From NCBI GenBank assembly GCA_001791995.1, contig MGFR01000001.1, positions 142,880 to 177,147 of the forward strand: DNA of 34,268 bases. The letters are read 5' to 3'. The notes below the pieces were generated by a model. That model searched no databases. It was not told the origin of the DNA and worked only from the letters and a program-made list of their open reading frames with translations. A program made the position numbers and the translations under genes. Shown here in pieces: positions 2,601 through 7,118 of this stretch; position 1 is the first letter of the stretch, and the number at the start of each line of letters is the position of its first letter. Source of the stretch: Candidatus Woesebacteria bacterium RBG_13_46_13 (lineage in GTDB: Bacteria > Patescibacteriota > Microgenomatia > UBA8517).

Positions 2601-3426
2601 AAAAGATGCTACCCCCGTCCTGCTAGATCCCCGCGCCTTGGGCTCAATCCTGTACCATGATATCTTCGATTATCCTCTGTCCTTCTCCGAGCTTATCAAG
2701 TGGGAGCGTGCTCCCGGTAAGGGCCAGGTTAAGATAATAGTCCAAATAAAAAACGGTTTCTATTTTTTACAAGGCAGAGACGGGATTATTCTCAAACGCC
2801 TGATGCGGAAAAGGATTTCGGCCAAGAAATTAAGCATTGCCCGCAAGGCGTCCCAAATTCTGGCGACCATTCCAATGGTTAAATTTGTGGGCATAACGGG
2901 GGCTCTGGCGATGGAGAATGCGGATGACGACTCCGATATCGACCTACTCATAATTACGCAAAAAGGTACCCTTTGGACGAGCCGGATTTTGGTGCTTTTG
3001 GCCCTTAAGGCGATAGGCTTTCCGGTCAGGAGATATCAAGATAAAGACCAAAAAGACAAACTTTGCCTGAATATGTGGCTGGATGAGACGGCTCTTGCCT
3101 GGCCCAAAAAGGACAGAAATATCTATACCGCCCACGAGATTGCCCAGATAGTCCCTTTGGTAAATAAAGCCAAAGCCTACGAAAGGTTTATCTTCGCCAA
3201 TAAATGGGCTAAAAGGTTTTGGCCGAACGCGATAAAAGTTCAAACTATAAAAATGAATCCCGAAAATTCTTCAAAACTCTTAAGCTCTTTGGTCGAACCT
3301 TTGGCCAGAAAGCTACAAATGTGGTACATGCGGGGAAAGATTACCAGGGAGGTAGTTGGGATCAAAAGGGCTGTTTTCCATCCCTTTGACTGGGGAAAAC
3401 TGGTGCTTTCCAAATTGACCTCTTGA
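2581..3426 (+). CDS. Nucleotidyltransferase-domain protein
   Basis: ORF 2512..3426 with likely start at internal ATG 2581 (MDLLVNKKDATPV...); 'GITGALAMENADDDSDIDLLIIT' resembles the pol-beta-like NTase motif G[GS]xAxxxxxxxSDIDLxI; 20-bp overlap with upstream CDS. Confidence 0.7.
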   Translation: MDLLVNKKDATPVLLDPRALGSILYHDIFDYPLSFSELIKWERAPGKGQVKIIVQIKNGFYFLQGRDGIILKRLMRKRISAKKLSIARKASQILATIPMVKFVGITGALAMENADDDSDIDLLIITQKGTLWTSRILVLLALKAIGFPVRRYQDKDQKDKLCLNMWLDETALAWPKKDRNIYTAHEIAQIVPLVNKAKAYERFIFANKWAKRFWPNAIKVQTIKMNPENSSKLLSSLVEPLARKLQMWYMRGKITREVVGIKRAVFHPFDWGKLVLSKLTS

Positions 3427-3451
3427 CAGCTTCTTGGCCACTAGCTAAAAT
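3423..3451 (+). promoter_or_regulatory. Near-consensus sigma70-type promoter for groES-groEL (TTGACA-17-TAAAAT)
   Basis: TTGACA at 3423-3428, 17-bp spacer, TAAAAT at 3446-3451; -35 overlaps the TGA stop of the upstream CDS. Confidence 0.8.
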
Positions 3452-3476
3452 AGCACTCGCTGTTAGGTATTGCTAA
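3450..3476 (+). promoter_or_regulatory. Degenerate CIRCE (HrcA operator)
   Basis: ATAGCACTC-N9-TATTGCTAA against consensus TTAGCACTC-N9-GAGTGCTAA: 15/18 arm positions match with exact 9-bp spacing, at the groESL transcription start. Confidence 0.75.
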
Positions 3477-3485
3477 CAGTTTTTT
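3460..3485 (+). promoter_or_regulatory. Leader hairpin with U-tract in groESL 5' UTR
   Basis: Perfect inverted repeat CTGTTAG (3460-3466) GTATTG CTAACAG (3473-3479) followed by TTTTTT (3480-3485), 7 nt before ATG 3493. Confidence 0.55.
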
Positions 3486-3492
3486 GCATACA

Positions 3493-6254: not shown

Positions 6255-6920
6255 TTAGCGGGGTAAAATGGTTATCGGATTAACGGCGACTCCGTGATCG
6301 CGGATTTCCAAATGCAAATGGTCTCCCGAAGCACGTCCGGTTGCACCCATTTCACCGATGACGGTATTGGTAGTAACCTCCTGGCCTTCAACCACCAAGA
6401 TTTTGGAAAGGTGGGCATAAAGGGAGGTTATTTTATTGCCGTGGTCGATAACTACAGCGTTTCCGTAGGCATATTTGGAACGGGATATAGCCTCAACCCG
6501 GCCGGCCTTAATCGGCCTAATCGGGTCTCCTGTTTCCCCGTCAAGGTCAATTCCGGGATGGAAAAGCCTATATCCCTGGGTAATTCTGACGCTTTCGGTC
6601 GGATATTGGGCGGAACGTTCCGTAACCAGCGGGGTAGATGCTTCCCCAACCACGTTTTGTTCAGCCTCGGCATCGGCGAAGACATTGGTGGGCGCAAACG
6701 AGCTGGCAATTAGGACTAAAGCCAGGTTGGTCCCCAGAAGCTTCCTAATATCTTTATGCTCGAAGATATGGCGGAAATAGCGGGAGATCTTATTCCCGGC
6801 TCTGAAATTTTTGATGGTTTCAAATTCGGGGAATAAAGGTTCCTCAACAGAACCTCCTCGCCTCTTGGCTAGGCTCAAGTGAAGGCGGTACTTAGGCAGA
6901 TTTAGTGTAATTTTTATCAT
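6255..6920 (-). CDS. M23-family (LytM-like) peptidoglycan endopeptidase
   Basis: 'FHPGIDLDGETGDPIRPIKAGRVEAISRSKYAYGNAVVIDHGNKITSLYAHLSKI...GDHLHLEIRDHG' contains HxxxD and HxH zinc motifs; internal hydrophobic segment. Confidence 0.92.
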   Translation of the reverse strand: MIKITLNLPKYRLHLSLAKRRGGSVEEPLFPEFETIKNFRAGNKISRYFRHIFEHKDIRKLLGTNLALVLIASSFAPTNVFADAEAEQNVVGEASTPLVTERSAQYPTESVRITQGYRLFHPGIDLDGETGDPIRPIKAGRVEAISRSKYAYGNAVVIDHGNKITSLYAHLSKILVVEGQEVTTNTVIGEMGATGRASGDHLHLEIRDHGVAVNPITILPR

Positions 6921-6929
6921 GGTGGGCAG

Positions 6930-6959
6930 AAAAAACGAGCCTGGGATAGGCTCCCAGGC
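6930..6959 (-). terminator. Terminator-like hairpin 2 upstream of the M23 start codon
   Basis: Minus strand GCCTGGGA-GCCTA-TCCCAGGC (8-bp perfect stem, 6959-6939), TCG, TTTTTT (6935-6930). Confidence 0.6.
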
Positions 6960-6962
6960 AAT

Positions 6963-6986
6963 AAAAATCCCGCTTTGCTAGCGGGA
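6963..6986 (-). terminator. Terminator-like hairpin 1 in the M23 leader / downstream of tRNA-Cys
   Basis: Minus strand TCCCGCT-AGCAA-AGCGGGA (7-bp perfect stem, 6986-6968) immediately followed by TTTTT. Confidence 0.65.
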
Positions 6987-6992
6987 GACGCG

Positions 6993-7022
6993 AGTATATC
7001 TGATGAAAGGGTCAAAAGTCAA
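6993..7022 (-). promoter_or_regulatory. Putative promoter of the M23 leader transcript (TTGACT-18-TATACT)
   Basis: Minus strand TTGACT (7022-7017), 18-bp spacer, TATACT (6998-6993); predicted +1 near 6986, the base of hairpin 1. Confidence 0.65.
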
Positions 7023-7046
7023 GTTTTGGGGCCTAAACCAACAAGG

Positions 7047-7118
7047 AGGCCTGGGAGGGAATCGAACCCTCGCATCGCGGTTTTGCAGACCGCAGCGTTT
7101 CCACTTCGCCACCAGGCC
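7047..7118 (-). tRNA. tRNA-Cys (anticodon GCA)
   Basis: 72-nt cloverleaf: GGCCTGG/CCAGGCC acceptor, GCGGT-CTGCAAA-ACCGC anticodon arm, GAGGG-TTCGATT-CCCTC T arm; discriminator U; no encoded CCA. Confidence 0.95.

Follow-up and report, generated by a model that had tools for sequence, protein, structure and literature searches.

The gene for an M23 peptidase, a putative cell-wall hydrolase, is preceded in a Woesebacteria-type (CPR) genome by a strong promoter and a short, U-tracted hairpin that begins at the predicted first transcribed base. This hairpin and its promoter are one conserved unit: it recurs before M23 orthologues and before a second, unrelated kind of wall hydrolase across the class. 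The best explanation, to which we give a probability of about 0.55, is that transcription of the M23 gene is terminated prematurely, and conditionally, right at its start site.

The window – the whole stretch of DNA analysed, 34,268 nucleotides in length – comes from a 711 kb genome in 5 contigs (98% complete). Direct reading and a pattern scan confirmed the layout described by an earlier sequence-only reading, namely a promoter, two U-tracted hairpins and the M23 AUG; on the minus strand the full order is tRNA-Cys, promoter, hairpin 1, hairpin 2 and the AUG of the M23 gene (Table 1). The pattern scan scores the promoter as a 10/12 match and places CGCGTC between the -10 box and hairpin 1. The first base of the hairpin, about 7 nt past the -10 box, is the +1 predicted from promoter consensus, and 47 nt separate its perfect stem from the ATG. 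That start codon is sound: most close relatives of the protein align from residue 1 or 2, the nearest named ones belonging to Candidatus Woesebacteria and allied CPR genomes. The protein carries an N-terminal extension and a likely membrane anchor. The leader DNA segment exists in one copy in the genome. Its folding energy, with the start region included, is -28.8 kcal/mol (z -4.0), and none of 200 shuffles is as stable; recurrence in orthologues is much stronger support than this single-sequence statistic.

Table 1. Features of the M23 locus, in window coordinates.
Feature	Position	Strand	Description
tRNA-Cys (GCA) gene	7045..7118	-	ARAGORN, Rfam; outside the conserved unit
M23 gene promoter	6993..7022	-	-35 TTGACT 7022-7017, spacer 18, -10 TATACT 6998-6993
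Hairpin 1	6963..6986	-	7-bp stem TCCCGCT/AGCGGGA, loop AGCAA (6986-6968), T5 immediately after
Hairpin 2	6930..6959	-	GCCTGGGA-GCCTA-TCCCAGGC (6959-6939), TCG, then T6; perfect 8-bp stem
Pre-ATG sequence CTGCCCACC	6921..6929	-	Direct reading; no Shine-Dalgarno sequence in the window M23 leader
M23 peptidase gene	6255..6920	-	221 aa, ATG at 6920, Pfam Peptidase_M23 E 2e-29

Upstream regions of 43 M23 orthologues, taken from the bacterium's own family, order and class, were scanned for a promoter with a T-tracted hairpin after it, and searched with a covariance model. The full unit of promoter, hairpin 1 and U-tract is present in 40 of these leaders; two are partial and one is without it, the exceptions being L004 (weak promoter), L077 (no U-tract) and L070 (no hairpin). 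Among the orthologues the hairpin starts 4–13 nt (mostly 5–8) past the -10 box and lies 7–141 nt from the AUG, its stem diverges in sequence (TCCCGC, TCTCGC, TCCTGAAA, GTCCTCGTA and others) and its loop ranges from 3 to 12 nt. Across 38 sequences eight of the nine hairpin 1 pairs change on both sides, and the covariation score – from an alignment (A3) fitted to the structure, of sequences related to one another – is 0.466; shuffling gives 0.195, and slid structures reach no more than 0.121. The same picture, in weaker form, comes from 19 sequences aligned with MAFFT (0.337 vs 0.183). The sequence-only reading had suggested testing the leaders of orthologous M23 genes by covariance search and had staked its case on the orthologues keeping the hairpins: the search finds a covarying start-site hairpin with a U-tract nearly everywhere, and hairpin 1 is kept.

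A simple reading of this locus is that the hairpins are mere terminators of the upstream tRNA-Cys, the M23 transcript starting downstream of both. The tRNA-Cys gene is indeed only 58 nt upstream in the window genome and lies upstream in about half of the orthologous M23 loci, in the same orientation except in L009, where it is reversed; moreover, hairpin 1 may additionally stop tRNA-Cys transcripts. But many loci have no tRNA or have it reversed: the unit is kept without tRNA-Cys in L014, L015, L017, L024, L028 and L029, and with it reversed in L009. A separate promoter sits between tRNA and hairpin, and where the U-tract lies at the AUG there is no space in which a later transcript could begin. 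The sequence-only reading had itself named hairpins found only as tRNA-Cys terminators as fatal to its proposal; the hairpin stays where tRNA-Cys is missing, and we consider this explanation highly improbable. The tRNA-Cys and M23 genes are in their own right an old neighbour pair.

The U-tract is central to how hairpin 1 is to be understood. In 36 of 37 sequences the stem is followed at once by at least four T's, and because these adjoin it at any distance from the AUG, the tract belongs with the hairpin rather than with the start codon. A terminator-like signal is, judged from the sequence, the best account of it. The promoter is near consensus and its spacer is unusually conserved (6.6 bits, vs 2.4 in groES promoters of the same genomes), although the latter may only reflect promoter strength. 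These features bear on a second explanation, that the start-site hairpin is a constitutive structure at the 5′ end, there to shield the mRNA or to modulate the access of ribosomes, and involves no termination. The hairpin would form the extreme 5′ end of the mRNA, a second hairpin often adjoins the AUG, and the comparable stem of LytB-like genes in the bacterium's own family (type B, below) has no strong U-tract directly after it. A simple 5′ stem, however, would have no need of a U-tract held against it wherever the AUG lies, nor does it account for conservation extending into the promoter spacer; we hold this explanation to be rather unlikely.

Covariance model searches show the element to be specific within genomes. 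The window genome has one strong match, at 68.2 bits (next best 17.8), and strong matches in 56 relatives are M23 leaders, nearly always one per genome; a match at a contig end in G031 is also an M23 leader, and G036 carries a second, weaker element. A general promoter habit of these genomes can be ruled out. The window was surveyed together with 20 stretches, none longer than 20 kb (847 kb with both strands counted): 24 of 323 promoter-like sites carry such a hairpin, 17 of them at M23 and four at groES with CIRCE. Because the stretches were picked around M23, the background rate is that of the other promoters only, 7 in about 306, the four groES sites included. At random positions in the same genomes such a hairpin occurs in 9 of 1615 cases. 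A model rebuilt from 38 M23 leaders and applied to 281 class genomes and 192 from the phylum matched 67 of the class genomes at E <= 1e-3, and none of the sampled genomes outside the class. Rfam at gathering thresholds recognizes only the tRNA in the window (the best other family, RF02837, reaches 24.4 bits vs the 49.5 required) and at permissive thresholds adds only weak, sub-threshold matches; literature searches found no description of the promoter-hairpin element.

The element is associated with genes for wall hydrolases. Among 42 new elements – matches outside the bacterium's own family and absent from the model-building set – 38 precede a putative wall hydrolase: 21 an M23 peptidase (one of them a truncated duplicate, L162) and 17 a LytB/GH73-like protein. 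Pfam finds M23 in 19 of 40 scanned proteins, with weak glucosaminidase or SLT matches in others, and for the second family a profile search leads to solved LytB endo-N-acetylglucosaminidases (E 4e-10). Of the remaining four elements, two stand before unknown proteins (L135 and L180), one before a CAP-domain protein (L170) and one before a stretch with no clear target (L190). In G093 and G245 the element stands at both M23 and LytB-like genes. We attach no probability to 38/42 because the matches come from related, non-independent genomes; nonetheless, with few hydrolases per genome, the base rate cannot yield such a figure. In L162 (G097:C30) the promoter-hairpin unit and the 5′ end of the M23 gene are duplicated about 2.5 kb apart, the first copy being cut short to 52 codons.

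In several loci the U-tract touches the ATG (L014, L165, L167, L177, L182 and others), and among the new elements contact or overlap is frequent: the junction reads GGATTTTTTTATG in L177 and GAATTTTTTTTATG in L165, and in L014, from the M23 set, TTTTTTA is followed directly by ATG. The hydrolase gene in such loci is therefore expressible only through read-through of the hairpin. This geometry makes unlikely the stand-alone small RNA that the sequence-only reading had left standing as an alternative, if M23 is then to have another promoter. A related explanation is that the unit is a tiny small-RNA gene acting in trans, with a product of about 25–30 nt (55–60 nt in the window genome) and with read-through into M23 as a secondary matter. 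Promoter and terminator-like hairpin are complete, as such a gene would need, and the type B sister element occurs without a hydrolase in several genomes, that of the window included. Yet loop and stem sequences are not conserved in the M23-type element (type A), which therefore has no common seed, and nearly all new elements lie before hydrolases, often in contact with the AUG: we regard a trans-acting RNA gene as improbable.

A U-tracted hairpin resembling hairpin 2 is clear in only two other leaders (L053 and L067), and as a second terminator-like hairpin it is lineage-specific. Many M23 orthologues have instead an unrelated hairpin, without a U-tract, a few nt before the AUG. By shuffling, an AUG-proximal hairpin is found in 18 of 31 M23 leaders at p <= 0.05 (11 at p <= 0.01), whereas for comparison genes from the same stretches the figure is 22 of 176 at the 0.05 level, roughly half of these being M23 or groES; a general habit of genes is thus ruled out. 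Structure against the AUG is also typical of the M23 gene, its sequence not being conserved. In this test the window leader does not reach significance, since its hairpin 2 stops 18 nt short of the AUG. In the window (6921-6929) and in L009, L010, L016, L027 and L053, with no Shine-Dalgarno sequence present, the bases right before the AUG resemble CUGCCCA(A)(A)U, or CTGCCC(A/G)A(A)T in DNA.

These comparisons recast the regulatory leader that the sequence-only reading had suggested. What stands is hairpin 1, which covaries, is U-tracted, lies at the start site and is kept in orthologues. The tandem arrangement finds no support, with only hairpin 1 conserved as terminator-like, and neither does a switch by alternative pairing between the hairpins, which amounts to GGGA/UCCC alone, in the wrong order for an antiterminator. 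Nor does a 55–60 nt RNA hold as a family-wide product: a stop at hairpin 1 would give about 25–30 nt.

Inverted repeats at start sites can also be DNA operators, and it might be supposed that the palindrome at +1 binds a repressor dimer in the manner of CIRCE, the hairpin being incidental. The position is typical of many operators, and CIRCE occupies that very place at groES in these genomes. CIRCE, bound by HrcA, is a sequence-conserved DNA operator with a fixed N9 spacing. The two elements are alike in placing an inverted repeat where transcription of a regulated gene begins; they differ in that the M23 hairpin is variable, both in sequence and in the length of its loop, and retains its U-tract. 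The CIRCE/HrcA operator (TTAGCACTC-N9-GAGTGCTAA) is absent from M23 leaders and present at groES. A loop of 3–12 nt without a 10-bp period, half-sites that differ between genera, and a near-invariant U-tract on one side only all argue against an operator, which we think very improbable. At the groES promoter of the window (3415-3490, plus strand) the CIRCE-like operator reads AGCACTC-N9-...TGCTAA; in the window genome, L121 and L131, and not in most relatives, a second start-site hairpin with T6 arises from its spacer.

A different start-site RNA belongs to LytB-like genes of the bacterium's own family. This type B element, a candidate new small RNA class that matches no Rfam family at gathering score, has the stem (A/G)UUCUGAGGC...GCGUCAGAAU at the transcription start, then a separate strong intrinsic terminator, then the hydrolase AUG. 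The stem is paired in all cells of 18 sequences and five of nine pairs covary, a favourable figure given that most rows were chosen by eye. It is found in the window genome at G000:C3:60125-60175 (minus strand; locus L230) and in relatives (L201-L217, L227-L256), and is nearly always single-copy where found. In the window genome and several others type B stands without a hydrolase, before a tRNA-Leu-like gene.

How might the M23 unit work? Attenuator leaders have a promoter followed by a terminator-like hairpin and U-tract before the gene, an arrangement conserved here in the orthologues, and in several loci the geometry forces transcription through the hairpin. From this we infer termination, its conditionality and the nature of the factor involved. 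The M23 gene would be transcribed from its own strong promoter (7022-6993), and polymerase would meet a terminator-like hairpin and U-tract beginning at the first transcribed base. Many polymerases would be expected to stop there, freeing an RNA of about 25–30 nt – in the window genome a stop at hairpin 2 would free one of about 55–60 nt – and hydrolase mRNA would be made by read-through alone. Since nothing is transcribed before the hairpin, control by an aptamer, riboswitch, T-box or leader peptide is not available from this promoter; with the hairpin at the predicted +1 in orthologues, and no Rfam family at gathering score, an attenuator of these classical kinds was set aside. The lack of upstream RNA means that control would come through polymerase or a trans factor. 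The decision would rest with something that acts on the hairpin, or on polymerase while it initiates or has just escaped: a factor loaded at the promoter, one that binds RNA, or polymerase's own state. The hairpin that abuts the AUG in many orthologues probably adds a translational brake.

Conditional termination of this kind suggests that risky wall-cutting enzymes are made only when something lets polymerase pass. Across a class of uncultured bacteria the element marks two unrelated kinds of such enzyme, with possible roles in division or in attacking other cells, and it therefore offers a testable regulon signature in organisms beyond manipulation. It also raises the question of whether an intrinsic terminator at the first transcribed base can switch a gene, and of what frees the polymerase.

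We read the element as a class-wide, wall-hydrolase-linked variant of the premature-termination leader, a kind already known. The rpfB leader of Mycobacterium tuberculosis is likewise a premature-termination leader candidate before a potentially lethal wall hydrolase, but there the 5′ UTR is long, folded and able to sense, whereas the M23 element has no RNA before the hairpin (PMC6009663). In Corynebacterium glutamicum the wall peptidase gene nlpC is also under RNA-level control; there a c-di-AMP riboswitch with a ligand-binding aptamer is responsible, and the M23 leader has no Rfam riboswitch match (PMC9960051). The closest known working model is AlpA, the resemblance being one of layout, with no membership claimed. 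It is conceivable, if doubtful, that CPR bacteria have a chromosomal, class-wide Q/AlpA-like wall-cutting regulon, in which polymerase would be stopped within 30 nt, by a terminator at +1, and freed by a dedicated promoter-loaded factor; to our knowledge Q proteins have no sequence relation to one another. At alpBCDE and PA0807 of Pseudomonas aeruginosa AlpA works through a putative site between -35 and -10 and enables polymerase to read past terminators that begin 26 and 54 nt after the start site, and its targets include self-lysis genes (PMC7969949). The systems of AlpA and phage Q resemble the M23 unit in having a strong promoter, one or more intrinsic terminators (in the M23 unit a terminator-like hairpin) before the gene, cell-lysing targets and information in the promoter spacer, which in the M23 unit may only reflect promoter strength (PMC7969949). 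Where they part is in position: AlpA's terminators begin 26 and 54 nt downstream, whereas the M23 hairpin, terminator-like by sequence, stands at +1.
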